Origin: Taxawa tesnikishii (nom. ined.)
Lineage: Eukaryota; Ascomycota; Dothideomycetes; Dothideales
Assembly (NCBI GenBank): GCA_030247885.1
Contig: JAPDRO010000002.1
Location: forward strand, 62,001 to 126,000
Length of the DNA: 64,000 bases
Reading direction: 5' to 3'
Shown here: positions 5,153 through 59,400 of the stretch, piece after piece
Numbering within the stretch: the first letter of the stretch is position 1
Layout of the letters: each line of letters opens with the position of its first letter
Program-made: the position numbers and the translations under genes
Notes under the pieces: generated by a model
What the model was told of the DNA's origin: nothing
What the model saw: only the letters and a program-made list of their open reading frames with translations
Database searches by the model: none

Positions 5153-5172
5153 CCCCCCCCCCCCCCCCCCCC
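5153..5172. repeat. Poly(C) tract, 20 bases
   Basis: Twenty consecutive C residues immediately downstream of the C2H2 gene, probably inside its 3' UTR. It is by far the longest homopolymer in the window; the next are a run of 10 G near 52996-53005 and 9 C near 27478-27486. Its length is likely approximate given the homopolymer behaviour of this assembly. Confidence 0.9.
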
Positions 5173-14800: not shown

Positions 14801-17800
14801 CTTTGGCCGGTGCACAGACCACCTCCATGGCCAGCTTTTCGGTCGCTCCGCTTGCATCCAGCGTCGTTGTGTCGGTCACCTCTGCTCCAGCGGTTTCCAG
14901 CACTTCTGTTCCTATCCGTGAGCCCGTTCCCGTTACATCTGGTGAGTCGTTTTTTCTTCTTCCTCTACTCAACTGCAGGTCAATTCTTCCATCTTTCAAG
15001 GATCTGGTCCACGACCCGTCGCCGCTATCATCAGCACCACTTCCGCGGATCTGCCCGTGTCTCTCCCGGCAATGCTCAAGAATAGTTCGAGCAGTGGTTA
15101 CAGCACTACTGATGGCTTCGCGTCCCAAGCAACCGTACTCGCCTCTTTAGTCGAAGCAGACAGGGAAAACAGTGCATCATCCACATCGGCGAGCATCGTA
15201 GAATCTCTTTCTACATCCGAATCAGCATATCAGAAATCGTCGGCTCACCTTACAGCGGCGGTATCGAGTACTTCAGCGACTCCACCAGCGGCACCTTTGT
15301 CACTGAGCCAGCCAGGGAACTCTCCGTCTATCTTCGCCACGATTGCTGCTCAAGCTACGCTGTCAACCTCACAGCCGGCCGCCGAATTGGCCACGAACAG
15401 TTCGACGGTAGTACAGTCTGCTGTTGTGCCGACGTCAGCACATGCAGTGTCCATTGGCCCTGGCGGCCTCAGTCAGGCGACCTCGAACACGACCACATTT
15501 GCCGCACTTCCTACGCCACTTCCGACCTTCCCAACAGTCGACAGTGGGTCGGGTGATTACGTGCCTACGCAGTACACATCACAATACCTGCCCTCTTCAG
15601 CCGCGTCAGTGCCGATTTCCAGCACCACTGATAGCCAGAATTCAAGCTTGACCGTATCAACACAAACGTCGACCACCCTGAGCAGTGCGCTACCGCCAAG
15701 CAACAGCACCTCTGTGGCCAGCTCGATACCTGCCCCAACGACCGCTATCTCATCTTCAACCTCGGTATCCTCCATTGGCTCGGACTCGGCGACCAACCCT
15801 CAAAGCTCCACTGCTTCCGCGAGTTCTTCGGCCGTGGTTACCAACGCGCCCATGACATCGTCCTCGTTGTCTGCAGCGACACATGACTTGATACCATATC
15901 CAGTGGTCCCGAACTTGACAGTGAGCGCCAGCTCACTGGTGAATACTTCGGCATCAACCTCTGCCCCAAGCGTAACCGCCAGCTCTAAATTTTCCTCTCA
16001 GACCGTCAATTCGATCAACTCGACAGTTTCAAGCCAGGTCAGCGCTTCTGGACCATACGCCGCCTCTGACGCATCCGCATCTCCGCTAGTGGTGTCTTCT
16101 GTGATTGCGATTAATCCAAGTTCAATGCAACGTCCAGGGACGTCCACGGACTTCAGCGCGCAAATTGCCTTGTCATCATTTTCATCGGCAGCGGGGATTA
16201 CTCAAGGAGCACGGCCATGCCATCGAACAGCTCAGCTTCTGACACGAGTCCCGCGAGATCAGGATTTCCTACCGTTAATTCCCTGAGGGTGTCAAGTGGG
16301 ACATCGATTGCGCCGACGTCTGTTGCTACATCTTTGGGTAGTGCAACCCCGAAAGTCTGCAACCGTCAGACAATTTTATATCAATGCAGCTTACTACTAC
16401 ACCTATACGTGCAACCACTCCGGCAACCTCTGGTGTTCAAACGAGCTTGGGCAACGCGACCGCGACTGCAACACTGCCTGCAGTATCCTCATCCGTCAGC
16501 CTGGGCCATGCTGTCCCTGTGGTCTCCTCGAGTGCTTCTGTCGTTCCAACCGCACCATCAGCCTCCGATCCTCCTATTCCCACCCTCGATCTCAAGGCGA
16601 GCTGGTCAAATGAGCTCAACATCACTCTACCTACTGGATTCGAAATCCCACTGTCTGCTTCTGCTCCTAAATCAGCTGTTTATCTGGGAACGGTCATCGC
16701 TAACGGAGATTCTATAGCTCAAACTTCCACGTCCGTGTTCGGCACAGACGCAGCTGCGGCTACATCAAGCGCCGACCCGACCTCCATCGATGCTGACCTG
16801 AACGTCTCCCTCTCAGCTGACCTTCCCTCTTTTCCAACACTGACCACAGACATTCTTGCCGCTAGCGCAACCGTCGACGCAGGGATCGCCGCAAGCATCA
16901 CTGGTCTTGACGCCTCTGCCAGCGTAGGTGCAACGCTCTCTGCGGACCTTCCAGACGTTGCGACCGTTCTTGCCACAGCATCTTTGGGTCTCGACACCTC
17001 TCCATCTGCCACGCAGCTTGTTGGGGCTGACCTTGGAGTCACCGTCGGACCAGTCAGCGTCACTGTTGATGTTAGCTTGCCATCGGTTCCCACTCTAATC
17101 GCTCCTCTTGACGGCGACAATGACGATGACCCCAACGCTACGGACGGCTCGTCTATATCTCCGGTCCTCTCCGACATTACTAATCCCATCGCTAGCCTCC
17201 TTTCACAGCTTCCTGGATCTTTCCCGACTGATGTGCCCAGCCTTGCCACCTCTCCGCCAACCTCCACCGCCTCTGATGACGGCTCCATTCTTGATGCTGC
17301 CTCCACTGCGGTCTCTGGTATCCTTGACGGCCTTTCTACCGCTACCGCTGACCTTCTCGATCTTCTGACCGGTCTGCCCACCGACGCTCCGGTGGCCACG
17401 CCTGTTGCATCTCTAGTGAGCGGTGCAGGGTCAGCAGTCACATCCATCGCTGGCGATCTCTTTGATGACACCCATACTACCACCACTATCAATTCCGTTG
17501 TCAACGATGCAGGAGCTGCCGCGACTTCCATCCTGAGCGGAGTAGAGTCCGCTGCCACTTCTATCGTTGATGGCATCGTTGACGGTTCCTCCGTTCCCAG
17601 CAACATCATTGTCTCCGCAGTCTCCGTCGCCACATCCCTCGTCGGTGATGGTGAAGCCGCTGCTACGTCCGCTGTGGGAGGTATTGAGGCTGCTGCAACA
17701 ACACTTGTGGGTGAAGCGGGCGCGGCAGTGACTTCTCTCGCCGGAGAGGCTGCATCAGCTGCTACTTCCATCGCAGGTGAAGCGGCTCCTGAGGTCACCT

Positions 17801-18525: not shown

Positions 18526-18990
18526 AGCGGTCATCATGACACCCTCTGCGTCAGAATTTGTTCCTTTGTTTCATGCCATCATCACAAACATAATATGTGG
18601 ATCTCATCTCTTATGTATCTAGTTAGACCTTGACGGTCCTAATAGTAATATCACTCGTTCTTTTCTACGCACTTCGTATCCACGAAATCCGTGTCGTGAT
18701 TATCGCAGTACTCAATCACAGTCACTGAACCATCGGGGTCCTGGTATCTGTGTCTGCTATCGTCGTCATACCGGCTTTGACTAGCATCGAGGCCGCCCAT
18801 AGGTTACCCAAAATCTTTCAAGACGCCCGTTCATAGCGATATACAAGTCCGCGAACGCCTTACCTAAGCCGCCTGCAGAGCGCGGCGTCGCTGAAGGTGC
18901 AGGAGACGGGGGAAAGAGCATCGCTGGCACCACACTTCCAATCAACAGCCTGACGAAGTCTTGGTTTTCAAGTTCTACGACAGTGATGCA
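18526..18990. other. Convergent intergenic region
   Basis: 3' flanks of the wall-protein gene and the FAD monooxygenase gene. No open frame of interest, tRNA or repeat is seen. Confidence 0.5.
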
Positions 18991-20456
18991 CTAAGACGGG
19001 AAAATGCTCCTATGACGAAGTTCGGCCCGCATAGTGCGTTCCAGCTGAATGGTGCAGAGAACCTGGAAGCCTGCAGCCAAGTCGTCAACTGTAGCAAGCG
19101 CTGCGGCATACAGTCTCACACTGGTATATGAAATAGAATAGTAGTAAGCTTCTTCAACCCATATATGGCTGTTTACCCCATCCGTTTTCCGCGCACTGCG
19201 TTTCTGCTTAGTCGGGCCCCTGTTGATATCGAGAATCGGATAAAACGGCAACGGAAAACCCTCGTCTCTGGACTCGGTACTTCTCTCGAACTTGTTCGCC
19301 AACCAAGGCGTTGCCACGGCCTTGGAGAATGTCGACACGCCCACTTGGAACAGCCATCTCTTCCACGCTGACTCGGGGTGCGCAATTTCCGGAACGAAGG
19401 AGGGGATCTCCTGCGCCTTCTCGACAAATGGGCGAAAGGTGGTTTCGTAAGCCTCAAGCGCTCTCCGCGGATTTTCGCCGTCATCAAGCTTGCTTAGTTC
19501 GCCTGCGAGGACGTAGGCGCCTGTGATGGCCAGACTTGTACCCATGCCTGTGAGTGGCGTCGGGGCACACGCGGCGTCCCCCAAGCACACGACGCGATTG
19601 GCGAACCATCTGGTCATCTTGATCTGTTGGATCGCTTGGAAATAGAAATCGGACGTATGACCCATGGCGTTCAAGAGTCTCTGCGCCTGCCATCCAGCGT
19701 CTGCGAACTCACTTCTTAGGAGCTCTTCCTGCATTTGTCTGCCGCTCCTAGAAGCTCTTTGCCACGCCTTCTTCTGAATGTCGTTGCATGGCATGCGCGT
19801 AAACATCGCCCTGATGGTCCCATGTGGATCGGGCCTAAGAGTGATAATCTTCGATCCAAGAGCGTGGTAGATATTCCACCAGTCGTTGTCGCTTGCCAGA
19901 CGTGGAATAGTAAAGTACGCTGCGTACATGTCTTTGTCGATTATAGCAATCGAGTCCGGGGGAAGCATTGCTTTCGTATTTTGGACCACTGTCCATCAGC
20001 GGCGACTAAGAGATCGAACTCCTGCACATCTCCATTGCTTAACTCGACCTTGACCGCATCGGTCTCGTTCGAGATGACTTCCTTTACCGTAGTTCCGAAC
20101 AGGTAGTTGACATTCGGCAAGTCTTTCGTAGCCTCATACAGCACCGCAGCTAGATCACCTCTCAAGATCTCGAACTCCGAAGTCAGACTAACAGTGCTTC
20201 CCGGAAAGACTGCAAATGGCCGTCCCCTGGCGTCGATGAATTGGGTACCCTTTTCCGTCGTGTGGAACTCCCTAATCCGATCCAACAGGCCCATCGTCCT
20301 GATGGCGGTAACTGCGCTGCCTTTGATATCGATATTCTGGCCCTGGCGGAGTACAGACTGGCACTTCTCGACGAGCGTGATGCGTGCGCCGGCTTTGGAG
20401 AGGAACCACGCCAGCGTGGGCCCGGCGATGCCCGCTCCACTGATCAGGACGCGCAT
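18991..20456 (-). CDS. FAD-dependent monooxygenase (PHBH/salicylate hydroxylase type), one-base frame gap
   Basis: Group A flavin monooxygenase, probably hydroxylating an aromatic or secondary-metabolite substrate with NAD(P)H. It is intronless; bridging one base gives 488 aa. The N-terminus shows the Rossmann GxGxxG motif (VLISGAGIAGPTLAWFL) with an acidic ribose-binding residue at the end of strand 2 (ITLVEK). The middle shows the LLVAADGQWSKIRK motif (DG motif). The C-terminal half has the second FAD motif RVVCLGDAACAPTPLTGMGTS (GD). The frame changes at AAAG (plus 19972-19974 TTT): the two frames overlap so that WSKIRK is followed directly by AMLPPDS once one A is added. Either the base is missing from the assembly or the gene is freshly broken. 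There are no biosynthetic neighbours, so the substrate is unknown. Confidence 0.85.
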
Positions 20457-21317: not shown

Positions 21318-23323
21318 TCACATGTTGACGCGCAAGAGGTACCGCAAGCGGACCTGAGCGACATCGTAGCAGATATACTCGTTGTATTGGAGATACGCAT
21401 TTGCGACCCCTGTCGGGCCGGGAGGGGTGGTGGTGTCAGGCTGCGGAAGGGCACACAGATCAGTGACCGCGCATGAGGCGTAGGACGAGAGAGGGAGTTG
21501 GGACAGAACTTACCATGGTGACACCTGCCAACGACTCGTGGACACATCTGGCATCTTTCCAGCCCTTCGGACCGGTGACACCCTGACCCCACGTGGAATA
21601 CACGCCCATCTTTTTCGCCTCATCGCCTGCGTCGTACTTCGCGCCCTGGAGCACCTGCATCGGTTGACCAAGCTCAGCCTCGCACAGCAGAAGCAGCGCG
21701 TCGCCGCCTGAGATGTAGGGGTAGCAGTAGTTGGCAGACTTGGAGGACATGTCGGCGAGGTAGATGCCTGAGGAGCGCATGTCAGCTCACATACAAGGAT
21801 CAACAAGCGGAAGACGCGAGTACGTACCCTTGTCAAACATATAACCGGACACTGGTGCTTCCGGCGGCGCAATACGAAGACCTTGGCCAAGAATACCACC
21901 GTAGTTGGTGGCTCGCGATCCGTGCCACAACAGCCTCCGGTCGCTGGCAATCTTGGCGTAGCCGCTCTTCTGGAATCGGTCCAACTCACCTTGACGCTCG
22001 ATGCGGAATATGTCTTTGACGTTGTAGTTGATGTTATGGGTCTGGCCGCAGGTCTTGAGCAGGTACTGGTGGATCTCCCCGAATTCACTGCTCTCCGGCG
22101 CGAGAGGCGTCATCTCTTCCAGTCCAAGGGCCTTGAAGCGGGAGTCCAGAGGATGGATCTCGTCGCCCTTCTTCTCTGCCTTGAGGATATTGTCTGCATC
22201 CTTGAGGTCGCTGAGGCTCTCGAGTAATTCTATCTCTCGCTTGAGCATATCAGTTGTGGAGATGACCGGTGGGCGGTTCCGTCCGAAGGAATGCGGAATG
22301 AAAGAGTAGTACAGGTTAGACAAATCTTCGATTTGGTCCCGGTCTGGGTTCGCAATGGACGCATCGTCAATGAGTGCAGATAGATCTTTCAGCGTCTGGA
22401 ACCCGCGAGTGATAGTGGCTTTGCTGAGTTTACCCAGAGGCAGTTTGTTGGCGTCGTAGTTCATACTGTCCATGGCGGCTGCAAAGTACTGCTGGTTGAA
22501 GATGAGCTCCATCAAGGACTTGACCGCTGGTTCCAGTGTGCACTTGGGAGGGTTGTGTTCGCTGCGCTCGCGGGGGCGCCACTCCCGGTCAGAGGCTCCT
22601 CATCGTTGGAGTCCGGTGCATAGCTCTTTTCCACAAAGACGTACTTGCCAGACTTTGGGTTGGACCCTCTGTTCTCCCAAGCCAAGCCGGACTTGTCTTT
22701 GAACTTCTTGTTGAAACAATGCATGGCGTCCTCAAGGCTGCCGAGTCCCAGGATGGCATTCTGTCCATGCTCACCGACGCGGCCCCACCGAGTCCACGTC
22801 TTGTAGTCGCCAAGCGGACCCTCAAGAAGCTATTCAAGCGATCGTTAGTGTAGGGAAGCGTTGCGATGCTGACAGTGGTTTCGTACCTGAACGCGGTAGA
22901 ACTTGTTGTTGTTCTTTCCCGCGTTGGTCTGGTTCAGCGAGGCATCGTATATTATACCATCACTCGGATCGACGTATACACGATAAGACGCAAGCGGGCA
23001 TCCTTCGTCAACGGGAATGCGTAAGGTTGATGAAGTGGCGATTTGGGCCTCAGCAACTTTCGGTTCGGCTTTGGTCTTCTTCGGGGTTCATCTGCCGGGG
23101 ATGCGGCCCTCTTCCGCTTCTTGGAGGTGCCGTTGGCTGCAACTGTGTCTGCATCTGCATCTGCATCTGCGTCTGTGTCGTGTGGCGCGTCATGAGCTCC
23201 GTTGTCATTTGCTTCCAGCGCATCGGTCATCTGCTGCTTCTTGGAAAGACCGGTGGTAGGAATGTCGCGCTCTTTGAGGAGCGCTCTGAGTTCGGCAACC
23301 TTGAGCTTCGTATAGTCGGCCAT
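21318..23323 (-). CDS. Poly(ADP-ribose) polymerase with N-terminal SAP domain
   Basis: Nuclear PARP that would ADP-ribosylate targets at DNA breaks. Exons are 23323-22887, 22829-21828, 21767-21514 and 21440-21318; the introns (57, 60, 73 nt) all have good borders. Two one-base gaps, at GGGG 23083-23086 and GGG 22546-22548 (plus strand), must be bridged; the total then is 605 aa exactly. Domains in order are SAP (residues 1-35, KLKVAELRALLKERDIPT), a linker with an (Asp-Ala)n run and the NLS KKRKR, WGR (about 100-195, ending TWTRWGRVGEHGQ), the PARP regulatory helices (about 245-375) and the catalytic domain. The H-Y-E triad is present: LLWHGSRATNYGG, GIYLADMSSKSANYC and the C-terminal LQYNEYICYDVAQ. 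The SAP-WGR-PRD-CAT order is that of plant PARP2. The fungal PARPs I know best, such as Aspergillus PrpA, carry BRCT instead. Confidence 0.92.
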
Positions 23324-24086: not shown

Positions 24087-25760
24087 ATGTCATTTCTGTC
24101 GTCGAACGAGAGGCTCATACGGCCCCTCAGGATGATGGCCTCCGCCACGGGCTTCCTTCAATTACCCCGGAGCTTGTCCTTCGAGTATCTTCCTACCTCA
24201 CGACTCCGGAATTAGGCCACTTCAGACGGACATGCAAGGACATCGAGGCCACGCTCTTCGACAGCTTCGCGAAAGAGTTCTTTACCAAAGGCAGTTCATG
24301 CTTGAATACGTAAGTCTTCAAGCACTTGTCGACATCGCCAATCATCCCAGGCTTTCTCGCTGGATATCCGAAGTCATCATTGGCGTTCAAGCACATGTCA
24401 GTCTGAACTCAATTCATGCATCGTCAAAACCAATGGAGATGTACAAATCTGGTTATCCCAGCCGCCACGCTTTACGAGCGAGTGGGCGCGATCGCGACAT
24501 GCTCGTGGAAGCTTTCTCCAAGCTCCCAAATCTGCAGACTGTGGGCCTGCGGGACTACAACGCAAGGGGCCGCTTTCGTGACGGAGAGAACGCGGTCTGG
24601 AGAAGTTATGGATGGTCGTGCAACGGGCTGTTTACCTCGGACAATGCCCGCTGTCTGCTCGACCGGGACGAGATTGAAGCTTCTTTGCCCTTGATTCTCT
24701 ATGCTCTTGGCCATGCTCACTCGACGCCAGGGAGTCTAGAGGTTTTTCTGCGGCACAGAGACAGACTGACCCCTCGGTCTTTCAACGTCCTCGACGGCTT
24801 CATGTCATCAGCTATCATTCCGGTCTTGGAAGGACTCAAGGTGTTGATGCTGACTACTGGTGGTGAGCTCAACCCCGATTATATGGTGCCGCCGGAAGAC
24901 CCTATTCTCGACGACGATAACGGCATCGAAGCTCCCATGAGGCGTTTTTTCCATTACACGCCGAACCTCGAAACCCTGCGCCTCAATTTCCAGCCCTATC
25001 AATGGCTCGCTTACCGATTCCTGAGCTGGTTCGCCAAGCCCGCGTCAGTCTTGTCATCACCCCCAGGCCCCGCTGTTTCGCCAGTTCCGCCGGTCTCTCT
25101 GCCCAACTTGACAAAACTTGATCTCGGTACGTACTGACGAGTCATACGCGCGTCGGGTCCTGAAAAGCTGTCGAACTGCATGACGGACTGTCGCTCCAGT
25201 CAACTATACGAACTGCCTCTCAGACCGCTGGTCGAGACGCCAGTTGACTTTCCTGCGGACTCTGCTGACAATTGCCAGGCATGCTCACCGTCAAAGATCA
25301 GACCCTCTTACAAGTCATAACCAAGTTCGACTTGACTTCCCTCAGCCTTTGGAAAGTCACTCTTCAGTGCGACGACCCCGGCGCTATCTACCTGCCTACC
25401 CACTGGGCAGATCTCCTGCGGAAGCTTTCAGACACTTTGCCCGCCTCGACTCGGCTAAAGCACGTGCTCATCGGGTATGCCTCTCAGAAGGGGCATGCGA
25501 CTGTCGTACCTGTCTTCTTCAAAGATTCGGAAGGCCAGCAGGCCAATAGAATCGAGTATCGTTCCAGATACGGATCTAACGTCAAAGACTGGCTGCGGGT
25601 TCGGGCAGCTGAGACCGCTGTGGAGGAGCCGCCGGTGATGGACAGCTCTTCTGAAAGTGGAAATCACTCTGGAGAGGACACGGATGGCGTTGACGAAGAG
25701 TACGAGGAAGACGACGAGAGCGAGTCGTCGCCATCTAACTCGGATGATGATGAAGCTTAG
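24087..25760 (+). CDS. F-box-like domain protein with acidic tail
   Basis: Predicted F-box-type adaptor. Exons are 24087-25126 and 25279-25760; the intron is 152 nt (GTACGT...TGCCAG), unusually long for this window, and could hide a small exon. Two one-base gaps, at CCCC 24123-24126 and AAA 24287-24289, must be bridged, giving exactly 507 aa. The start MSFLSSNERLIRP leads into ITPELVLRVSSYLTTPELG (about residues 27-45), an F-box-like leucine pattern. FAKEFFTKRQFMLEYVSLQALVDI follows once the second gap is closed; this resembles a family I associate with Dothideomycetes. The middle has Leu-rich segments around LETLRLNFQ and LTKLDLG. The C-terminal 40 residues are almost all Asp/Glu/Ser. Partner and substrate are unknown; SCF membership is inference from the motif. 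Confidence 0.72.
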
Positions 25761-25828
25761 GACAGAGAAAGGGGAGAGGGCACGCATGTAATCTTCCGTG
25801 TTCACATTCAGATTTGGTATTCGTACAT

Positions 25829-26695: not shown

Positions 26696-28933
26696 GGTCG
26701 TGTTTGCCTTTGCGCGCACGATAAAAAGGGCTAGGTGATAAGGTCGTATCTAGTCACGAGCGCGAAGTTTGGCGATGGAGCGTCCCTTTATCATCACAGC
26801 TCGTTCAACCTGAGCAGTTACCAAGTGAGAGGCTCAGCCGCCGTTCGTATCATGTGCCTGTGTGTTCAATGAGAAGGATTTCGCGTGTCGGTATAGTCGA
26901 TGGTTTGATTGCTGAAGCGTTTGCCCTAGTCCTATCTGGGATCAATCGTCTTCCCCATCCGGCTCTAGCGCGTCGAGAGCACGGGCTGTAAATCATTCAG
27001 GAGTCGAAACCGTTCGACAACACCGCCCGGCAATGCTTCTATGCTAACGGCTCATCGGCAATCTTGCTACGACACCAGGCCCTACAGTCTGATACTGGCG
27101 CTGTGTCTGTCTCCTGCGCTTCGAAGAAAATTGCTGTGTGTCGACAATGCGCTGCACCGCATGGATACGCCTCGAGTCGAGATGGAGCTTTCCTCAAGCT
27201 TCGTTCACAGCTCGCCGACGATTAGACAGTCTGGCTTAGGGTCGCTGAAATTACCGTCGCCGAATCGCTCGTATTTGTAGGCGCCACACTTTGGTGGAAA
27301 CTCGAATCCCACATTGCGGATCGCGTCTACTCGCAAGTTGCCATGGCCGCCTTCATTCCGTGACGCGTGGGGTATGATATACCTACTGTCTTCTACACGC
27401 GATACCGAACTCGTCTGTACGGTTCTGACCCAAATGTCAGAGGCACATCGCCAGGAAGCGCGTTTGAACAGTCTTTGCCCCCCCCCAGGTCTCGGTGTTG
27501 TTTGATTGATTGTACGCCTGTTGATAAGACCTACCAGATTAAGAAAACTGACGGGCTCTGACTCCGGCATAATCTTCGTCTATGCCGGAATCTCTCCGTA
27601 AGCGCGAGTTTTGGCAAGGGCACGTGCCGCATGAGGGGGATGACTCTAGTTTATCACAAAGCTCTTCGGCCCGGGGTTTGATCGATCTGATGGCCTTCTG
27701 TAGGGGAAAGATCAGGTCTTCTCGAAGAGAAAGAGTGTTCCAATACCATTGCGGAAATAGATGATTGCCTGTCGGGTAGTACTTGCAACGTAACAAGAGA
27801 ACTGAACAAGACATGGGTTTAAGCAATTGTAGCTGTTTGAGTTGGAACGCGCAATAAAAACTGAAGAGAAACGTGGACGAACGAGTGAGATATAGGTGAA
27901 GGATGCACGGTGAATATATCGTTCCCCACAATCCCCGCCATACAGCATGGACGATCGATGGCTATGGAATGACCCTTGTCAGTATTGGTGAAGGCATTGT
28001 CAGGAGCCAAGGCCTCGAAGTGCGTGGCTGAAAAGAGCATTCAACCAGTCGACTAAGACTCTGCAAGGCTTCGAGCGTCTGGGCTGTGGAGCTTGGGCGT
28101 TCTTGTTAACCGTAGTGGCGTTCCGCGGTAGACGAGGCACGAAGAAGTGCTTCATCATGACTCTCTCTACGTTGCGGAGCCCCCAGGTACCCTACGCTTC
28201 TCCGCAATTCACTCTCTGGGGACGAGCGGAGACGGTCTTTCGATCACGAGCCATAACACAAGTACGTGTAATATTTGTTGCAATCGACGGATGTACACTC
28301 ACAGGTGCGTGCATGCAAGTCAGTGATACCGCTAGAAAGGAACCTTTGGGAAATGGAATCATCCCGTGGCTGCTAGAATCTCGTCGCTGATTTGGTTCCA
28401 GTCGAGCTCGCAGCGTACTATCGCGACGAAGGACGACTTGCTGACGTTCAGACTGATGATCTTGATTTTCCCATTCTCTACAGGACGAGTGGATTACTTC
28501 CTCCATGTAGGGAAGCTGCTATCGGCACACGTGTTGTGCCAGATGACGTCAACTGAGTCTTCCGCTTCAGATCATGGAGTGGGATCTACCTTCGGCGCGC
28601 GCAAGCGACCTGATATGGGGCGGCGTCATCACGTCCGCCTCTCCGTGTAAATTTGAACGAGCGGGCGGTGTCTCCATGTCGAGAAAGTGGTTTGTCTCTC
28701 TGCTGGCTGCAGCTAGCCTCGTGAAGAACTGCGACGTGCAATCTGCAGGCGGTGGTGGTGGTGAAGGAAGGGCGGGGAATCTCGGCCGGATAAACAATAT
28801 CCCCCAAAGAATAAAGCGAGAGAGAGAGAGAGGATCCCGGTTACGATTAAATAAGCGCATGTCCTAGTTCGCATGCAAAATTGTTGAGAACGCGTCCTTC
28901 CCTACAGTCCATCCGCTCGTATCTTATACCACG
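26696..28933. other. Intergenic, 2.2 kb
   Basis: No supported gene on either strand. It holds the promoters of the GPI-anchored gene (minus) and the Zn2Cys6 gene (plus), a 9-base C run near 27478 and a (GA)n stretch near 28817-28832. Confidence 0.5.
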
Positions 28934-31463
28934 ATGGAATCCTGTCCAATGTCCGCGTCAAAGCGATCCAGCAACACACCTGCGAAAGATCGGCTCTCCA
29001 AACGTCCGCGAACTGAATTGGCATGCACTTCATGCCGGAATCGCAAGACGAAGGTCCGTCGCTCGACATCAAACAGACGCGGTAGGCCACCGCCACTAGG
29101 TTAACTCATCACAGTGCAGTGGAGCGAGGCCTCAATGTGATTCCTGCGGTAAGTCAAACTTAGAATGTGTGTACGAGCAGCCTGCGCCGAGCAAAGCACA
29201 GCCGGCGTCCCAGCGTCGTACGACCAGACACGATCAACGATCAAAGGCCGGCGGGGAGTCACTGCAGACAAGGGTGCAAGCGAAGTACGGGCGCAATGAT
29301 TTGCCTACGCAAGACTTCCATGCCGACCTATATCGTGCCACGTCCGACCACGGTCAACCTTACGCAGATACGGCTGCCTCCAGAGAGATTGAAGAGAGTA
29401 TCGATGGTATGGCAGCTATTGCAGACCCTGAAGAAACTAGGACGAGATTTTTTGGACCATCGTCGAACATTGCATTCCTCCGAGAGATATCTGGCGCCAC
29501 CGAGAAGCTGCTCGAGGCAGCAATATCAAATCACGTCAACGGACATTCTGAAAGACCCCGGCCTTTCGTTTCTCGCAGGTCATCCCCAGTTTCGTCTCAG
29601 CTTGCGGTGTATCCCACACCAACTGAGCCGGTCAATACTCGTTCACTGCCTACGGATCGAGAAGCACGACACCTGATTGGCCTTTTCTTCTCCGATACAG
29701 GCACGCTGTTCCCTTTGTTCACGAACTGCACGTCTTCAACATTTACGCTGCCGCAGTAAGGCACGACTCGTCTGGCATCGCTGGGTCTGAGCTTGCTCTA
29801 TTGAACGTCATCTTTGCTATTGCAACCTATATCAGTGCCTTGCCTGATTTTCCGATGGATGGAAACGCCAAGAGGGCTGAGGTCTTCTTCGCTCGAGCAC
29901 GCCTGCTTATCTCAGACACCAAATACATTGCCGCCAGTTTCGAAACAGGTATCAGTTTGCAAAGGGCCGTTCCGCTGTTCGCCCATTGACAATGTGCAGT
30001 GCAAGCACTTCTGCTAATGACCCAGTATTGCACGGGCGCACAACGCTCGGACGAGACATGGAACTTCCATGGCCGTGCAGTGCGAATAGCGATACAGTTG
30101 GGACTTCATTCGAGTAGTGCTGCTGCAGGACTCACTGCTCTTGAATTTGAGGTGCGGAAGCGTACATGGTGGCAATGCTTCATCCTGGACTGTAGCTTGA
30201 GCATGACTTTTGGACGTCCTCCAGCTATTGCGGGTGGACACATCAAATTAGCCTTGCCACTGAACGTGACCTTGCGATCACTACCTGGACCAGGTGGTAT
30301 TGAAAGTCCGCTGGCTGGGGGATCCGAACACTGCAAGGGTGCGGAAACCTTTCTCGCTACTATGTATGCCATATCGACTATCTCAATGAACAATCTTAGG
30401 CTTACCGACGACAGTTCGTTATACAAGCTCTGCGAACACATTCTTGCAGATATGTACGGACAGAACATGAACGACAATTGCGATCTGGCGCCTGACCATC
30501 TTATTGAATGCGTTGTCAAGTACGAACAGAAGCTTTCCAACTGGCAATACGAACTTCCGCACGATCTCCAGTCTCGGCCATGGAAACATGATTCAGGTGA
30601 AGCGCCTGTACTCTGGGGCAATGATCAGCTCTCAAAACGCTTCAGCACCATATTGCGACTGCGGTTCTTGAACGCTCGATTGCTGCTGCATAGGCCCATC
30701 CTGTATGTTTTCCTCAAAGGCTTTATGCGCTCTGTATCATACAAGAGTTCGTTTCTCGCGCGTTGCGCAAATCAAAGCATAGCAGCATGCAACACAATTG
30801 CGACGGAAATCATCACTATCGTCCACGAATTGAGCAGGCAACCCTCTCTACTTGGTGCTTGGTGGTTCTCAGCTTATTACAGTGAGTTGTCTATTTACGC
30901 CTAGCCGAGCCGTACGAAACTGACTTACGCGCACAGCGTTCACAGCATCTTTGACTATTTTCAGCTGTTTGATCATTGTTGTGAGAGATCTCCCGCGCTC
31001 AGAGGATTTCTCCCACAGTGCGACTGACACAACTGATACAAATTCCATTTCCGCAATGAAGGCCACACTCTGCTGTGGTGCGGACACTATTGCTAAGCTG
31101 GGGAACGGTGCCCGATCAGCTCAGAAGATGCGCAGAACCCTCGTCAGGTTGCTACAAATTTGTGAGACTTTCTGTGAGTGCTCGGTCGATTAGTTGTGGT
31201 GTGTGGTTGCTAACACTGTTCAAGCCCAGGCGAAGCCAGCGAGTGACCACGAGCCATCTGCAACCTTTTCTGGCCCTTCGCAGTTTGTCGATTCGGAAGT
31301 CGGTACTCAATCTGTCGCCGATGACCCTCACATTGAACGCTCTGATGCCACTCTCTCACCACGCGGCTTACAGCCTGACATCGATTGGTCATGGCAAGAC
31401 TTCGATGTGCTTGCTGGCTTTGACGGCGCACAACCCGAACTATGCAGTTTTCTGGCCCTCTGA
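28934..31463 (+). CDS. Zn2Cys6 fungal transcription factor
   Basis: Binuclear-cluster regulator, 770 aa in five exons: 28934-29053, 29115-29948, 30000-30881, 30937-31173 and 31225-31463. Introns are 61, 51, 55 and 51 nt. One missing base at CCC 29711-29713 must be bridged, and the total is then an exact multiple of three. The cluster spans intron 1 and is perfect: Cys31, 34, 41, 48, 51 and 58 (C-x2-C-x6-C-x6-C-x2-C-x6-C). The middle homology region (fungal_trans) is clear: LFPFVHELHVFNIYAAA, GRAVRIAIQLGLH and EVRKRTWWQCFILDCSLSM. The family binds CGG half-sites and often controls neighbouring catabolic or secondary-metabolite genes. The P450 gene 378 bases downstream on the same strand is the obvious candidate target. 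The ligand and exact orthologue are not recognisable. Confidence 0.9.
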
Positions 31464-31841: not shown

Positions 31842-33613
31842 ATGGCCATATCTCTTCTTTTCTCCTCCGTTGAAGCGCATCCCGGGGTCTTTTTCGCTGT
31901 TCTCTCGGTCCTTATCCTCCTAATTTATTGCGTATACCAATGCTACTTCCATCCACTTGCCAGCTACCCCGGCCCTACTCTTGCATGCTTGACCGATTTG
32001 TGGCAGGTACATCAGTTCTGGACGCTCCAACAGCCATACACCCTTACCCAACTCCACGAGAGATACGGTCCGATCGTTCGTTATGGCCCGGACAAGCTTA
32101 GCATCACGGATGAGCGAGCCATACCTTTACTGTACCAGAAAGGAGGGCGCTTGTTTCCGAAGACCGAGTTCTATGATGCTTTCGGCGCAGCTCATCCGAA
32201 CTCTTTTGGCATGAGGGATGAAGCAGTATGTCTAGCAATTTCCTCACGAGTCTTGACGAAGACAAAAACTCCCAAAGCTCACAGTCGACTGTAGCAACAT
32301 GCTGTACGCCGTCGCCATATGTCCTACAGCTTCTCCATTACCTATGTCAAAGAGCTTGAGCAATTTCTTGACATCAACATCGCTCTCCTGAAACAAAAAT
32401 CACAGCATACGCATCCTCTGGACAAGCATTCGACCTCAAAAAGCTCCTCCAATACTATGTAGTAGACGTTCTTGGGGAGTTAGCCTTCAGTCAGTCTTTC
32501 GGTATTCAAGAAGCTGACGATGAGTCGTTGGTACCTCCTGTCGCGGAGCACACCCTGCTCGCCTCCGTGACGGGCGCTTGGCCAAGCATGACCAAGACGC
32601 TGAAAGCATGGCTCCCACTTCTCCCCTATCGCCCGTTGCAGAACCTGTTTGAGGGTCGCCGAGCATGCGCAAGTCTGGCCGCCAAGTGTGTTGAAAAGCG
32701 CCTGAGTGACTTGCAAGACGCCCGAGAGAGTGGCAAGGTGCCTTCTGGACAGCGGAAAGACATCCTTACTAACCTGATTTTGGCCAGAAATCCAGAAAGT
32801 GGAGCGCTTCTGAGCAAAATTGATCTGCAGACGGAAGCGTTCGGGTTTGTGTGAGTGACACAGACTGGCTTGCGGGAAAGAGACGTGCTCATTTTCCACT
32901 CCAGCATTGCAGGGACTCATACCACGTATGCAACGGCCACTCTCCTGTTCTACCATCTCCTCCACGCACCCGAGCACCTCTCACGATGTGTCGCTGAACT
33001 TGACGCCGCTCTACCGTTGCTCAAAGACAACGAGCCTGCGTATGCCGTGACGGCCGTAGAATCCTCCACCCAGTTCTTGAAGCAATGCGTCAAGGAAAAC
33101 TTTCGCATCACGCCAATATTCACAATGCCGCTCGCCCGAAGAGTTATAGATCCCGCCGGCGTCACGATCGGGGATAACCACTTCCCGCAAGGCGTGAGTA
33201 AAATCGTTTATCATCACTAACAGCACTTGTAAGTCGCCGTCGCTGACACTCCGCTTCCACAGACCTCGCTAGCAGTCTGCAACCATGCCTTTCATCACGA
33301 TCCCGCCATCTGGGGCCCCGACCACAACGTCTTCAACCCTTCTCGCTGGGACGAAAAGGCGAACAACGATCGAGCGAGATATCTGATGCACTTCGGTCTC
33401 GGACCGCGACAATGCATCGGCAAGACGGTGGCCATGACCAATATCTACAAGCTGAGCAGTACACTGCTCAGGGAGTTCAGTTTTGAATTAGCAGATGCGG
33501 AAGAGCGGCAGGCTGTTGATCGTGGAGAATTTGTTGGAAAGCTGCCCAAAATGTATAGCGTAGGGATTAGTGACCTAGATGGTCCTCTGATGGTGACGGC
33601 GCGGGTCAGGTAG
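31842..33613 (+). CDS. Cytochrome P450 monooxygenase
   Basis: Microsomal P450 of 526 aa in four exons: 31842-32225, 32295-32850, 32905-33193 and 33263-33613. Introns are 69, 54 and 69 nt. One missing base in AAAAA 32395-32399 must be bridged, after which QKITAYASSGQAFDLKK runs on and the length closes. An N-terminal membrane anchor (VFFAVLSVLILLIYCVYQC) is followed by a proline hinge YPGP. The C-helix region has RRRHMSYSFS. The I-helix reads AGTHTTYAT, with His where most P450s have Asp or Glu. The K-helix ExxR is ENFR, and the haem signature is FGLGPRQCIGK. The acid residue before the I-helix threonine usually helps proton delivery, so His is notable, though known in some fungal families. 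Substrate is unknown; the adjacent Zn2Cys6 gene suggests a small regulated unit. Confidence 0.92.
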
Positions 33614-34354: not shown

Positions 34355-36886
34355 TTACTCTTCGTCCTCCTCAGCGGACCAGCTTGCGTCTGAACCCTCA
34401 AACTCTCCATCATAGCGGTCGCTCTCATCGTCCGGAAAGACTACATCTACCTCATCCGAACTCTCCTGCACATCTAACGGCTCTCCCTCTGCCACACCCT
34501 GACCTCCTCCTGCCGCCGACTGCTGACCGCGAAGTGCTGGGACCCGCACAGCCCTCCCATGCACCACCGAGAAGTGAGCTGGGTCCACAAGCTTGCGAAC
34601 CCTAACATCTCCCGCAGTGCCGGCAGCATCTGCATTGCGTGCATTGCGTGCCTTGCTCCTTGGATTCCGCATGAACTCGACGCTGATGTTCTTCACTCCG
34701 CCCTCCACCGTTTCGATCTTGAAGCGCGTACTGATGTTGTAGTACGCCCGGCGGGATTCGAACATGGACTTCGTAGCTCTGTATCCCAGAGCCTGTATGT
34801 TCGGGAGACGCTCCTTAAGATGCACTTGCACCTTGATATGATCACGGGCTTCTCTGTTGCGTCCTGACGGAGTGAAAAGCGACTCGTGCTGCTGGGCGTT
34901 TTCCCGCTTCGTCGCTAAAATGACCTGCTCGAACCATTCTTGATCCCTCGCAATCTTCCACTCGAGGATGGCAGAATTTCCCTGCAGCGGATTGCTTTCG
35001 TGCTGGGGGCAGGAATCGCCGTGCTGGCAGTCAACGTTGAACCATAGCACCCTGTTTATCGCATACTCTCCTTTGAGCAGCCTGGGATGCCCGACAGCGT
35101 CGTGGTGCATGGTTTCGTCGAAGAGCTCGTCTTGAGTGACACCGAAGACCCATCTGTTAAGCTCTTCTGTCACCGTTGTCTCCGACTTGGCCTTGAGCAC
35201 GCTGGAAAATTCGTAGAGGGCACCGATAGCAACAGAGTGCCTTCCTCTTTCCCTGTAGCTCTGTCAATATGTTGCACTGGCTTAGGAGGAAAGTTGTAGA
35301 ATACGTACTCCCCGTCAGTCCAATCCTTGTACAGGCTGATGCGTTCGTGCTTGAGATGATTTTCGATAGAACGCTGGAGGAATTTGTCACGACCGAAAGG
35401 GCCGGGGATCACGATGTGCTAGACGCGTGAGCCTCTGGTGAACCCGATAAGATGGCCCACTTACAATCTTCCCTTTCACCCGTGATGTCATCTCGTCGAT
35501 GAGGTCAAGGATATCCCCAACTCTACAGTCATCGTGATAGAACCTTTCCACAAGCTTCCTGAGAGGGCATCGGTGTGTGTTGACGATGACAGAGTACTCG
35601 AACCAAAGACATACCATTCTACCTTAAAGGTGTGCTCCTCGAGCTCCTGTTTCACACCTGACACGCTCTTGCAATCCACGATAAGTCGTAGGGGCTTACC
35701 CAGAACGAAGCCTATCCCAGACGTCTTCGCCTCTTCGAACTTCGCGTCCATGATCGCCATCAACTCCTCTAGGTTGTATCCAAGCTTTGTTGTGATATCC
35801 TTCCCGTTGCCCTCAGGTGATCGATAGCTGTCGCGAAGATACTTCTCCAATCTTCTGTTGAGGAACGACGAACCCGCCATGATACCTTTGACCTGTCAGT
35901 TTCCCAATGTGACATATGTTTGGTATTGGTACATTACCCCTCGTTGACCCTATTTGACGGTAGCCGATGTTTCCATCTGCCTGCTTGTGGAACCGAAGTA
36001 GCGTAGCATCCTAGACAACGTCAAAATTACCGGGAAGCAATGTGACGGATTCTGTGAACAGTCACGTAGCATCGAGTGTCCTGAGAGCACCGACGACAAG
36101 GGTCAAGACATACCGTTGTGCCTCCGCCGATGTCCGCGATGAGCATCGAATATCCATGCTGCTGACAGTCAGTAGTTGTAAGATTACTGAACACCGTCAG
36201 CCTACCTCTGACTGGATCATGTTCATGATGGAACCGCGTTGGGATGGGTCGTCCAGACTCTTTCGCACGACATACATTCCAGCCGAGGCGGCTTCGTCGA
36301 TGAGATAAATTCGTTGATGAAGTCTCTCCGCTGCATCTTCGAGGACGTCGTTCTCCTTCTCTCCCCACATCGTTGGTGTGGTGATAGCAATATGCCATTG
36401 CTGCTCATCCGGCAGCCAGTTCGCCGGGTCTTGTTGGAGCCGCTCGGTTCTCGCCCAATCTCTGACGGCAGCCTTGACTTCGTTGATGAGACACTGCAAG
36501 TTAATTGTCCAAAGGTCTTCGTGAGTCATGCCGCCCTTCGCCAGCAGTAACGCGTCTGTGTGAGCCTCGATGTCGACTGTCTGCGTACATTTGTGAAGGG
36601 CCACCTTCGCAAGCTTGAATATGTCTTTCTCTTGTACTGTTCCTCTCTCTAGGTTTCGTTGCAAGTCGTGGCCCCAAGTTGGTGGACTGTCTTTGTTCCG
36701 GGCTAGGTGTAGGATCGCGGGCGCCCTCGACTCACTAGTAGCTCTGCGATCAAACTTGACGATGATGACACTGGAGAGCGGTACCTTCTGCATATCGTCA
36801 TACCATAGAACGAAGGCTGCTTTATGGTACGTGGTTCCGATGTCGATGGCTATGTAGATAGCCTGAGGGTCGGTTGAAGTGGCCAT
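34355..36886 (-). CDS. Hsp70-like ATPase-domain protein (HSPA12-type)
   Basis: Divergent Hsp70/actin-fold ATPase, 743 aa in six exons: 36886-36206, 36161-36114, 36010-35938, 35885-35615, 35558-35465 and 35418-34355. Introns are 44, 103, 52, 56 and 46 nt. One missing base at TTTCCC (35248-35253, plus) must be bridged; all phases then close. The start MATSTDPQAIYIAIDIGTTYHKAAF gives the phosphate-1 loop. IADIGGGTTDATLLRF, assembled over an intron, is the phosphate-2 loop, and IVIPGPFGRDKFL corresponds to the adenosine segment. The C-terminus is not a canonical Hsp70 substrate-binding domain. It ends in a very acidic Glu/Asp tail (SSDEVDVVFPDDESDRYDGE), with no EEVD. Filamentous fungi have many such single-copy Hsp70-like genes of unknown role. 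Chaperone activity is not established for this class. Confidence 0.85.
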
Positions 36887-40554: not shown

Positions 40555-42588
40555 ATGAAGACCACCTGGAAGGACATTGCCCCCGTGCCAAACCACACCG
40601 AGTTTCTGGACATTGTTCTCAGCCGCACACAGCGCCGCTTGCCTACACAGATAAGAGCCGGGTTCAAGATCAGCAGGATAAGGGCTTTCTATATCCGCAA
40701 GGTCAAATACTCCTCGGAGACTTTCGCTGAAAAGCTGGAGGCCATCCTTACTTCGTTCCCCAAACTCGCCGATATCCACCCTTTCCACAGAGATCTGCTC
40801 AACACACTCTACGATGCAGACCATTTCCGTATTGCTCTGGGCCAGCTTTCTACAGCAAAGGCCCTTATCGAGCGGGTTGCGCGCGACTACATTCGACTTC
40901 TGAAGTACGGTCAGTCGCTTTTCCAGTGCAAACAGCTGAAGAGAGCCGCTCTGGGTCGCATGGCTACGATCACCAAGAGGCTGAAGGATCCACTTCTATA
41001 TCTTGAGGAAGTGCGGCAACACTTGGGAAGATTGCCATCCATCGACCCCAACACTCGCACACTCCTTGTTTGTGGCTACCCCAATGTTGGAAAATCGAGT
41101 TTCTTGAAGAACGTGTCCCGCGCGGACGTGGACGTTCAGCCATACGCTTTCACAACCAAGTCTCTGTTCGTTGGTCATTTCGACTACAAGATGCTGCGCT
41201 TCCAGTGCATCGACACTCCCGGAGTCCTTGACCACCCTCTGGAAGAGATGAACACAATTGAAATGCAGAGTATCACCGCGATTGCTCATCTTCGCTCCGC
41301 GATCATGTATTTCATGGATCTGTCGGAGCAGTGTGGATACTCAGTACACGCGCAAATGGCTTTGTTCGAGTCCATTAAGCCGCTGTTCGCTAACAAGGTG
41401 AGACTTGCGAGGAAAACGGGTCTAAAGATGCGTAGCCGCTAACACAAGGCAGCTTGTCTTTATCGTGATCAACAAAATCGACGTTACTCGTATCGAGGAC
41501 CTCGACGCAGAAACACAACAGAAGCTGCAAGAGATCGTCAAGGCCGGAAACGTCGAGCTCCTTCAGCTCTCTTGCGCCACGACCGAAAACCTCATGAGCG
41601 TCCGCAACGCCGTCTGCGACCGTCTCCTCGCCGAGCGCAACGCTCAAAAGCTGAAGGCCGGCACCAACAGCTCCGGTGAAGTGACCGGCCGTCTCGGCGA
41701 CGTCCTCCGCCGCATCCACGTTGCGCAACCACTCGGCGGCGTTGTTCGCGAGGCCTACATCCCCGAAGCAGCCAAGAACCGCATGAAGTACGACCCAGAA
41801 GACCCGAACCGGCCCAAGCTGATGCGCGACATCGAAGCCGAGAACGGAGGTGCCGGTGTTTTCAACATCAACCTGAAGGAGAAGTGGCTCCTGGAAAACC
41901 CGGATTGGCGCGAGGACAAGATGCCGGAGATGCTGGACGGGAAGAACGTATACGACTACGTGGACCCGGACATCGAGGCCAAGCTCGCGGCATTGGAGGA
42001 AGAGGAGGCGCGTCTCGAGGCCGAGGGCTTCTACGACGATCTGGAGGAAGAGCTAGAGGATGCGGAAGACGCGGAGATCAGATACAAGGCGGACCTCATC
42101 AGGGAGAAGAGGCAACTGATCCGCAACGAGGCCAAGATGCGCAAGAGCCTCAAGAACCGCGCCGTCATCCCGCGCAGCAAGAAGGCCGTCCAGCTCGAGA
42201 AGATGGAGCAGAGCTTGCAGGAGATGGGCCACGACACGACCTCCATCTCGGAGCGCGCACGCTCGCGGTCCCGCGCCCCCGCGGCCGTGCTGGTCCCGCA
42301 GGCGACGGCGACGCCGAGATGATGGATGTCGACGGCGCCGCGCCTGCAAGGCCAAGGAGCATCTCTAGGGCCATGAGCCGAACGAGAAGCCAGAGCAGGA
42401 TGAATAGACGCGAGGACGGTGTTACGGATGAGGTGGCGAGGGACAAAGCCGAGAGGATGGCTAAGCTAGGCCAGAAGAAGATGAACCGGATGGCCAGACA
42501 GGGCGAGGCGGACAGGCATACCACTGCTAGCAAGCAGAAGTGGCTCATGTCCGGTAAGAGGGGCATGGGCAGCACCCGCAGTAGGTAG
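40555..42588 (+). CDS. NOG1: Nucleolar GTP-binding protein 1 (60S ribosome biogenesis)
   Basis: Obg-related GTPase that joins pre-60S particles in the nucleolus and leaves in the cytoplasm. Exons are 40555-41397 and 41453-42588; the intron is 55 nt, between FANK and [10 protein letters not shown]. With one missing base restored in CCCCC 42276-42280 the protein is 659 aa, the family length. The N-terminus [20 protein letters not shown] is the NOG1 hallmark. G1 is GYPNVGKSS (about residue 173), G3 is DTPG and G4 is NKID. The C-terminal region is charged, and the basic tail after the gap ([32 protein letters not shown]) matches the conserved NOG1 end. Without the correction the protein would stop at 42322 and lose that tail. 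Because NOG1 is essential in yeast, the gap is best read as an assembly error. Confidence 0.95.
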
Positions 42589-52228: not shown

Positions 52229-54058
52229 CTTGACTGATGTGATTGACTTTTTGGGGAGGAAAAAAAGGTATGAAGGTGAGGAAGGGTATCGGAAGGAGAT
52301 TAGCGAATGACTGTAAGTAGTTGGAGTACTAAAAGAGAGGACGACCGAAGTCAGGCGACTGGGTATCTTATGTGTGCGAGGTTGTTGGCGAGGGTGAGAT
52401 GGAAAGGACCCAATACTGAGACACGAGACCAGGTTTTTGTGTTAAGGTCGGTCTTGGCGTGGGAAATGAGATGGTGCTTAGCGCCGGCTGGGATAGTCGT
52501 TAGGACGTGCGCGGCGCAGACGGTTGGAAGACCGGCAGACCGCAACGAGATTAACGCCGCCGCAGCGACCAGGGCCATATGCAGGTACGAGAACACAACG
52601 TTTGCTTTGCCTCGACCACCCTCTACCGCCTGTCATGCAACGTTTGCGCATAAGGACAACGAGAATCGCGACGCGACACGGTGCTGCCTCGAGCGCTTAC
52701 TGTTCTATCATGACTTCTTCGCCCTCAACCATGTCGCAAAAGCGCTTCACGGCACAGTTTCCACATAAAAGTGTCTCGGCCCTTGACTAGTGATCGGAGC
52801 ATTTCTCCCCGGGTGATCGATAGTTCCACTGTTGTTTCGCTAGCGCCATCAATCTCGGGTTTTTGAACCAATCAAGGAACTCCAGCGGCAGGCCCCGCAA
52901 GACACTGGTTGGGGGAACGAAATTGATTGTCTTGCGAGCCCAAGGAAAATGAGAGTGAATCGGTGTTTGCACCTCTGCTCTAGGACTGTTGATCAGGGGG
53001 GGGGGCTTTTGATTGTTCATGTGCTCACAGCACTCGAGTGGCATCTGTGCGAAATTGGGCTGATGTTGCACGTCCTCGAATGAGAGTTCTGCTCGACCAA
53101 ATGACTATAGCAAGCGACTGTATGATGGTGCCCGCAATCACCCTCTGTCTCCCAGGAACCCTCGCTTCAAATCCAATGCTCAAAAATAGAAACAAACATC
53201 TTCTCCACATCTAAAGGGTGTGCGCTCAGTGCGCTGTCTGAGTGAACGACGTCAGTCTGTTTGTCAGGCTCTTCACTCTTGCGCGGTAACGAGCAACTAG
53301 CCGCCTCTGCCATTCTCGATTCGGTGTTGGCCGCCGAAGCTGGAAGGTGAGAGGCCGGTCCAACGTCCGAGTTTGCCGAGGATACGACGAGGCTTGACTT
53401 CACGACATCCTTCGTGTCTTGGCGTCGAGGACTCAGCACTCTTCTAGAGACCCGAAGAGGTCATCGGTGGCCGTGCTCGCGTGTTGGATAGTTAATATCG
53501 TGCTCGGATATCAACGAATCTGCAGCAGTCGACCACTTCGCGCTCAGCTTCCTGAACTCACCTAGGGATGGTCCTCTTTTATTGATGGCCGCATTAACCG
53601 CTTGCTCCATACCCCGGTCCTGGGCTATAGTAGAGCCATTCCACCGGGGACGTACATCTCCTTGCTCGCAGCTCTGTGTGGCATGAGAGGAGCGGACGGA
53701 ACGTTGCATTCGGTGCACCGAACGTCCAGCACAGCCGCCCGAAACGCCCATCTTTTGGAAAGGCGCGAACAGCGACAAAGTATCGCTCAACACGTAACGA
53801 CTCGGCAACGCTTCGGCAACGCTTCGTTATACGTCTGGACGTTGTAGCGCAACACGAATGCCGGAATACTCGAGCCGGGCTCGCCTGAACAGCACAATGA
53901 CTCAAGACTTCGGGCCTCTCACGATCAAGACAGCCTGTCTGCAAACAAACACAGGTCCCCGCCTACGATAACAGTCGACACAGATCCCACTGCGCACGCC
54001 CGATCATGAATGTCGCTCAACGCTCAAAGCCCCACCCCATATCGTCCCGTTAAAATCT
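52229..54058. other. Intergenic, 1.8 kb
   Basis: Nothing supported. It includes the promoter of the wall-protein gene and a run of 10 G at about 52996-53005. Overlapping open frames at 53460-53950 have no motifs. Confidence 0.5.
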
Positions 54059-56433: not shown

Positions 56434-59400
56434 CTAGACAGCACCAAGAAGCTCCTTGATCTCTCTGCAATATGGTCAGCTTACTCCAGATGTGTCTAGG
56501 AAGATTCTACGTACGAGAGTTCAAGCCCGCGTCTCGCCACGTTGTTTTTGTGGTTCTCCATACAGCCGTCAATCTCCGTATCCTTCCTCTTCTTGATGTC
56601 GGTCATCTTGTCTTCGATTGTGTTACGGATAGTTAGGTTGGCCAGGTAGGTCTCCTTTTCTTGTCCGATGCGGTACACACGACAAAATCCTTGCTGCTCA
56701 ATAGCCGAGTTCCACCTAGTAAGATGGTTAGCTATGACGACCTGGTCAAGCCATCAATTGCATGTACTCACCATGGATCCAAGTTGATCACTGATTTGGC
56801 CATGGTGAGATTGAGCCCAACGCCTCCGCTCTTGAGAGTCGAGATGAAGATCTTCTTTACTGGGTTCGTTTTGAAGAGACGCACTGCGTTGTCCTTTTGT
56901 TTGCTGTCCATATCCCCATTCAACGCGCAGCAACCCCACCCAGCTTTCTCGAAGGTCTGTTTCAGAATCTTGATCATAGGCAACCACGCGGTATAGACAA
57001 TGATTTTGGAAGCAGCATCCTCTCCAAGGATCTTGGTGATGATCGATGCTGCCTGGTTTGCTTTGGTGGACAAGTAGTAATTGCCGTATACGTCAGTCCA
57101 GTCTTCTAGTTGGTCTTGTTGGAGTTTGTTGTACTCTTTCGCCTTTTCTCTCGCCTTGTCTTTCTTGGAGCGGCTCGGCGCGTAAGGCCTGCTTGATATA
57201 TAATACGCACCACAACCTTTAGCTTTGCAAGAAGCCTGAGGTTCCCCACAACGAGCTGCTTCCTCGCCAGCATCCTCCAAACATTGTCGACAGTATAAGT
57301 GACCGCAGCTAGTCCTCCAAGGCTCAACAGCGGTCGACTCGCAGTCAACGCATTCTAGCTCCCCTCTTCGGACTGCAACGTCTTCAAGTCAGAGGGCGTT
57401 ATCTTTGCAAGGAGGTTGCCCAGCATCGAGAGAAAAACAGCGTCTTGATGACAGTGGTAGCGCTGGTCCGCTGCGAGCTCTTTGAGTTCTTCCACGTTCT
57501 CTTCGGAAAAATACTGAATGATGATTGTCCGAAGGATGTAGGGATGAGAGCAGAGTTGCCTTTCACGCAGCAAAGCAACCATTGCTTTCCGTCTGGTCAA
57601 GTGAGCCTCTTCCTTGACCCATTCACGTAGTCGCTTGACTACGATGCGATTCACTTCAGCCATTGCGGGACTGAACGACAGCTTCATGTCCTCCCGCCGC
57701 AACTCGGGAAGCTTGAACAGTGCCGCGCCGAACAGCATGCTCTCATGAGTTCTCCGCAACATGCATGAAGATAGTTGCTCTTCCAGCTGCAGTTCTTGGC
57801 TGAAGAATTCTTCTTGTGTATTGGTGATGGGGTGTCTGATGAAGTCGAAGAGTGCGTAGAACTCTGAGATGGTGTTCAGGACCGGCGTGCCTGTGATGGC
57901 CCACCGATGTTGAGCGCGCAGACTCCGGCACGCTTGAGAATACACACCTCTCGGATTTCTGATGTTGTGTGCCTCATCGAGGCAGATCCGGAAGAAGTCA
58001 CATTGGTGCAACAGGCCGCGTTCTCCTGCAGTATCTGTATCCGTCTCATCTCCATCTTCTGCGAACTCTTCCCCTTCTTCGGCTTTGTTGTGGTTCTGCT
58101 GCCCTTTATAGCTCTTCATGACCTCGTAATATGTGGTTATGACGATGTCACAATCCTCCAAATCGACCTTAGAGTGATCGTTGGCCCCTCTGTACTTGCG
58201 GACTCTGGAGATACCGTGTCCTACTGGCGTCCTCTCCCCAGTTTGATGCAGTGAGCCTGAATCTCATCGTACCACTGCTGAAAGATCGCCGACGGCACAA
58301 CGACGAGTGTGCTGCGTTGGCTCTGGTGTGGCGGGGGACGGCCATTCACGATGCATGCCAGAGTTTCAACAGTCTTCCCAAGTCCCATCTCGTCAGAAAG
58401 GATACCGCCCTTTGGTTGCTGATCACCGGTCTCTCTTCCTCTCATCCAACCGGCGGCCCAGATTTGGTGAGGCAAAGGGAGCTTGTCATTCCTTTAAGAT
58501 TCCACCTGGCGTCTCCTTTTTGCCCGGGCTGCGCGGCACGGTGCCCGAGATTACGAAGCATCTCCTCGAAGACTTTCTTGTCGGCCCTGGCTGCTTTCTT
58601 CCACTCTCGACTTACGCCCGCGACGATCTGCCTGAGAGCTTCCGCTCTTCTGTTCGTGGGATCGAAGACCGGTTGCGCAGCACGTTTCGAGCTTTCTTCT
58701 ACGGCATCGTAGAAACTCTTCTCTTTCCGCTTTGTCCTTTTTGCTTTCGCTTCTTTTTCATCCTTCTTGTCTCTGGTCCGCCGTGGTTTTTGGGCGACGC
58801 TCTTGCTCCTCGGGAAGTATCTGCGGCAAACCATCATCTCCGAAACCGTCGATCACTGTTTCCTGGCGACGCTTCCCCAGTTGTACAGCTGAAGCGTGGT
58901 GTGTGGTGTTTTGCTCCGAAGTCCACTGCGTCTGTTGGTTGGTCATCGAAAAGGGCAGGTTGGTGAAAGCCATGTAAGAACCCAATGCAGGGTCGATGTG
59001 GTTTGCTTCGTTGAAATTCCAAGTACCTGTAGCATTGAGCTCATCGTATTCCACTTCGTTCTGTAGTTGCGGGTAGGCAGTAGCCATGTCTGCACCTGAT
59101 GGAGCGGACACCACGGACGCAAGGCCCTGTACAAGTCCTTCGTTTGAGAAAAGCTCCGACAGATCAAAATCAGGCATCATCGTTGCTCCCTCCATCTGAA
59201 ATTGTTGCATGAAGGCCATGTTGTCCGTGGAAGCAACGGACTCTAGATTGGTGTCGGCCGCGTCCATCGTGTTGTATGTATACTCGGCTGTAAGCTCCAT
59301 TTTCATTGGATGTTCGGATCTAATGTTGCTGGCACCGGAGCCTTCAAATTCCGTGCCGCCTGGGATGACTGGCAAGGCGTAGGTCTCATGGGTCAAGATG

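Follow-up and report, generated by a model that had tools for sequence, protein, structure and literature searches.

Several conserved genes lie in broken reading frames in a 64,000-nucleotide window of a genome assembly that we take to be fungal (G000:C12:62001-126000; the window is the whole of this stretch). The breaks are one-base changes, mostly of the deletion type, and affect in particular a FAD monooxygenase, a PARP, a P450, NOG1 and an SNF2-family protein. We are highly confident that they are errors of the assembled consensus and that the organism's own genes are intact: most likely, they are an ordinary artefact of a known kind and reveal no biology. An initial annotation of the window had interpreted them as homopolymer under-calling. 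This interpretation is supported by the spread of the breaks, their bias towards deletions, their enrichment at runs, the lack of nonsense events called and the presence of a chaperone subunit among the affected genes. Short homopolymers would have been called one base short at about one place per 3 kb of coding sequence throughout the genome, with fewer places over-called or misread, and the cause would presumably lie in long-read base-calling or consensus building.

The assembly analysed comprises 29,367,862 bases in 34 contigs. Each site listed in the initial annotation was submitted to two tests: a search for homology in the open-frame pieces on both sides, and an intron-aware frame model. 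The latter is a hidden Markov gene model that describes coding frames on both strands, introns with splice signals and non-coding DNA, and in which one-base deletion and insertion steps have equal cost. Training and scoring relied on identical DNA, and the model's first version, which under-called coding sequence (12 deletions against 1 insertion), was retrained. On synthetic genes, the model recovered 57 of 60 deletions and 60 of 60 insertions, with false events in 0 of 60. As both signs are recovered about equally, the excess of deletions reported below (42 against 11) is not a product of the method. Outside the window, comparison DNA consisted of 30 conserved-family loci and of twelve 10-kb stretches, which were set at chosen round coordinates rather than at random and two of which adjoin the window. 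The main event counts are those obtained at a frame-model charge of 12.

Frame breaks occur at a similar density in the window and in the twelve outside stretches: 10 deletion-type and 2 insertion-type events were called in 34.3 kb of coding sequence in the former, against 19 and 4 in 56.5 kb in the latter. The conserved-family loci yielded 13 deletion-type and 5 insertion-type events in 87.2 kb. With respect to break density, the window does not look special. When the charge is raised from 8 to 12 and 18, the ratio of deletions to insertions goes from 15/5 to 10/2 and 4/0 in the window, and from 37/13 to 19/4 and 9/1 in the twelve stretches. At charge 12, a break is present in 8 of the 20 gene-sized stretches of the window, in 20 of 46 for the twelve outside stretches and in 12 of 40 for the family loci, which makes 40 of 106 overall, or about 40%; at charge 15, the three fractions are 5/20, 16/46 and 10/40. 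The twelve stretches correspond to about one deletion per 3 kb of coding sequence, and scaling from their 19 deletions per 120 kb gives, as a rough inference, some 4,600 coding deletions across the assembly.

Profile searches lead to a comparable picture. We considered junctions between neighbouring profile matches of four families (CCT, HSP70, SNF2 and P450), omitting for three of them any row that had no neighbouring match on its contig; for P450, 92 of 127 candidates were scored. Among the 67 junctions, 11 show a net step of -1 and 2 a net step of +1, both too short for an intron, while 31 are intron-sized, 22 remain in the same frame and 1 is undecided. One of the 11 net -1 junctions lies within the window, and another, a P450 junction (C33), has an 89-base gap that could conceal an intron. 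This tally and the model counts share some loci and are therefore not independent. Searches for the AAA family (20 of 92 candidates scored) and for sugar transporters (9 of 323 scored) were excluded from the counts. As far as the twelve stretches and the four profile families show, breaks are thus spread over the genome and affect indispensable genes as well, as expected from consensus errors.

The events are also mostly of one sign and enriched at homopolymers, which is again what consensus errors would produce. In all modelled DNA, deletion-type events outnumber insertion-type events by 42 to 11 (sign test, p = 2e-5). Runs of at least 4 bases are found within 30 nt of 33 of the 42 deletions, the background among coding positions being 32% (p = 1e-9), and near 25 of 32 deletions when the window is left out. 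The posterior of deletion position falls on such runs with a weight of 0.167, where 0.033 would be expected (p = 0.0005, the lowest value that 2000 resamplings can return); for insertions the weight is 0.058 (p = 0.18). Synthetic deletions gave 0.041 when placed at random and 0.199 when placed in runs, from which most of the real deletions appear to behave as run-located. Run bases near deletions are T (14), G (14), C (9) and A (7). The DNA submitted to the run-position analysis has few runs of at least 7 bases (14 instances), and no A/T run longer than 8 was seen there. In the window itself, 5153-5172 is a C20 located in non-coding DNA; a C9 occurs at 27478 and a G10 at 52996. Long runs were considered as a sign of the sequencing platform and dropped, as C20 and G10 exist and there is no error-free relative to serve as a yardstick.

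Two affected genes are of particular weight. In the gene for CCT epsilon, located outside the window (locus L004, 2587-2596; G000:C1 near 528260), two pieces join at a GGGG inside a conserved stretch, and the net frame step there is exactly -1. In NOG1, the conserved tail lies in a different frame. Both CCT epsilon and NOG1 are essential in yeast. The breaks are therefore not confined to dispensable genes, as would be expected of pseudogenes. Nor were nonsense changes called beside the indels: with stop read-through allowed at the same charge, none of the window, the twelve stretches and the 30 loci yielded a nonsense call, at a sensitivity of 54 of 120 planted stops (45%). An organism could hardly live with some 40% of its gene-sized stretches broken, and the breaks are therefore most likely a property of the assembled sequence.

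Within the window, the initial annotation had listed 16 sites, all described as deletions and nearly all as lying at homopolymers. Every run listed is indeed present, and 8 of the 16 sites are supported (one in the FAD monooxygenase, two in PARP, one in P450, one in NOG1 and three in the SNF2-family gene). The purity that was claimed for sites and sign is nevertheless overstated. The deletions hold as a bias only, 10 against 2 in the window. Proximity to a run of length 3 says little: 88% of 3000 sampled coding positions of the window have one within 30 nt; the enrichment is real at runs of at least 4.

The FAD monooxygenase gene (minus strand) presents a deletion-type frame change at 19944-19995, the only place where its two open frames overlap. 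FAD_binding_3 positions 2-166 and 272-345 lie in separate frames, and the model event, at 19981, is close to the listed site at 19972. Two deletion-type changes affect the PARP gene, also on the minus strand. That between WGR and PARP_reg (22546-22600; model event at 22571) is flanked by homology, with PARP2 residues 224 and 221 only 2 bases apart at the listed site, 22546. The other, between SAP and WGR (22955-23090; listed site 23083, model event at 23088), has domains on both sides and falls in a linker without homology, so that its support comes mainly from the frame model. In NOG1 (plus strand), a deletion-type change at 42274-42303 precedes the conserved C-terminal tail and has homologous flanks: residues 553 and 568 of 8i9r are separated by 23 bases and lie in two frames (listed site 42276, model event at 42303). 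The P450 change (plus strand, 32372-32459, deletion-type) is located upstream of the detected P450 domain. Here the evidence is from the model, whose event at 32399 (listed site 32395) gains 4.2 nats over paths with no break; the upstream piece has no Pfam family match.

The SNF2-family gene, on the minus strand, combines four events. A deletion-type change at 57358-57388 separates the SNF2 domain from RING/Helicase_C, which lie in two frames; support for the listed site, 57361, is mainly from the frame model (event at 57363), with domains on either side. A second, within the SNF2 domain at 58224-58263 (model event at 58237), has homologous flanks, profile positions 74 and 98 being separated by 77 bases around the listed site at 58236. 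A third deletion-type change, where the SNF2 domain starts (58445-58493), is proposed by the model, with its event at 58459 for a listed site at 58483, and the piece upstream has no convincing Pfam match. The last event, at 58761-58852, is without homology. Two deletions at 58787-58794 had been listed there, together with the statement that no site needs a removed base; the frame model calls instead one net +1 change, at 58772, so that this statement is not established. As homologous flanks are too close to accommodate an intron at FAD 19972, PARP 22546, NOG1 42276 and SNF2 58236, these four sites are not introns.

The remaining 8 sites are not established: besides the SNF2 pair, they comprise two in a putative wall protein, two in an F-box-like gene, one in a Zn2Cys6 regulator and one in a gene named 'Hsp70-like'. 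In the wall protein (16101-16389, plus strand; listed sites 16193 and 16347), the model skips the stretch as an intron, and breaks would gain only 2.2 nats; the region is a candidate intron or may contain two breaks. No Pfam domain was found in the flanking pieces searched. The large repetitive open reading frame carries, at 14946-15147, a possible further frame change absent from the initial list, with a weak deletion event near 14956 (2.2 nats). The F-box-like region (24123-24310, plus strand; listed sites 24123 and 24287) shows a weak F-box match in one frame (E = 0.015), compatible with a frame change in 24136-24310; in the model, however, nothing before 24433 is coding, and breaks gain 0 nats. 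In the Zn2Cys6 regulator (29609-29713, plus strand; listed site 29711), Zn_clus and Fungal_trans lie in two frames, a model intron at 29609-29700 fits and the gain from a break is 1.2 nats. The same gain is obtained for the 'Hsp70-like' gene (35248-35308, minus strand; listed site 35248), where a model intron at 35253-35308 fits. Its name is unsupported, as no HSP70 match was found in its pieces or in a genome-wide HSP70 profile search in which 21 of 21 candidates were scored. Another gene, PheRS beta near 43950, was considered as broken and rejected: a 54-bp in-frame intron explains its appearance. The window event at 4070, located 5 bases from a start codon, is probably spurious.

These introns raise the question of whether splice sites were generally mistaken for breaks. 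Introns fit at least as well as breaks at 6 of the 16 sites (two in the wall protein, one each in the Zn2Cys6 and 'Hsp70-like' genes, and the two F-box sites, which fall in non-coding DNA in the model), and 31 of the 67 profile junctions are intron-sized. However, FAD, PARP 22546, NOG1 and SNF2 58236 leave no room for an intron, which refutes introns as the explanation of all sites; furthermore, introns would yield both signs about equally and without a link to runs, contrary to the data. We thus regard unrecognised introns as a highly improbable explanation, even more so than real gene decay, which we also consider very unlikely. Decay would make pseudogenes of the window's genes, or of the SNF2-family gene at the very least. 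The four events in that gene, one of them insertion-type, go in this direction, and not every SNF2-family, P450 or FAD gene is indispensable. Decay is nonetheless hard to reconcile with the similar break density of the twelve other stretches, the zero nonsense events called, the involvement of CCT epsilon and NOG1, and the strong excess at runs. Least credible is slippage, in which the shorter runs would be real and tolerated, frames being restored during transcription or translation. It would account for breaks that lie at runs and go mostly in one direction. Yet slippage would be needed in 40 of 106 gene-sized stretches, a minority of breaks has the opposite sign, and a shared motif is lacking, as each of the four bases forms runs near deletions (motifs other than runs were not sought). 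The idea of a genome with thousands of genuine one-base deletions at short runs, whose essential proteins are made by slippage, can be given next to no credence.

Errors of the assembled consensus have parallels in other fungi. In nanopore-only assemblies of Drechmeria coniospora, homopolymer length errors left conserved genes broken, which short reads then mended (PMC7500977), a situation like ours in that one-base homopolymer length errors affect conserved genes across a fungal genome; its authors scored runs of at least 4. A second study, on ascomycete genomes assembled from low-coverage Oxford Nanopore data, describes indels in conserved genes, within and outside homopolymers, which become fewer as coverage rises (PMC9453082). 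That work inspected three genes and shares with ours the presence of indels in conserved genes. Such nanopore-only assemblies may serve as precedents for the present errors, not as proof.

A number of observations weigh against consensus errors. The four events of the SNF2-family gene, one insertion-type, fall within 2.7 kb, for which the genome rate gives P = 0.026, uncorrected for the choice of gene; a locally poor consensus is the simplest account, with real decay of this one gene as a less likely alternative. About one-fifth of all events are insertion-type, and these too are near runs of at least 4 more often than expected (7 of 11, p = 0.03), as over-calls would be. In the Drechmeria coniospora assemblies, errors after polishing were more often over-calls (PMC7500977), whereas here deletions prevail by 42 to 11. 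C20 and G10 are called in the window, so long runs are not shortened everywhere. Finally, the recovery of only 54 of 120 planted stops limits the nonsense test.

With 40 of 106 gene-sized stretches broken, roughly four in every ten genes may end up annotated as split, truncated or pseudogenic, and accurate reads are needed before gene counts or gene losses derived from this assembly can be relied upon. The combination of sign bias, run enrichment and nonsense count drawn from an intron-aware model is applicable to a single assembly, with neither reads nor relatives.

The organism was taken as a fungus because the window contains a U2 spliceosomal RNA, a Zn2Cys6 regulator that carries a fungal-specific transcription factor domain, and short introns. 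The U2 gene is at 1846-2040 of the window (108 bits). The 5.8S rRNA family returned no match. A degenerate 5S rRNA match is present at 5435-5554 (G000:C12:67435-67554), with 37.8 bits, under the gathering score. In this assembly, 5S genes are dispersed across many contigs, with at least 47 among the matches listed.

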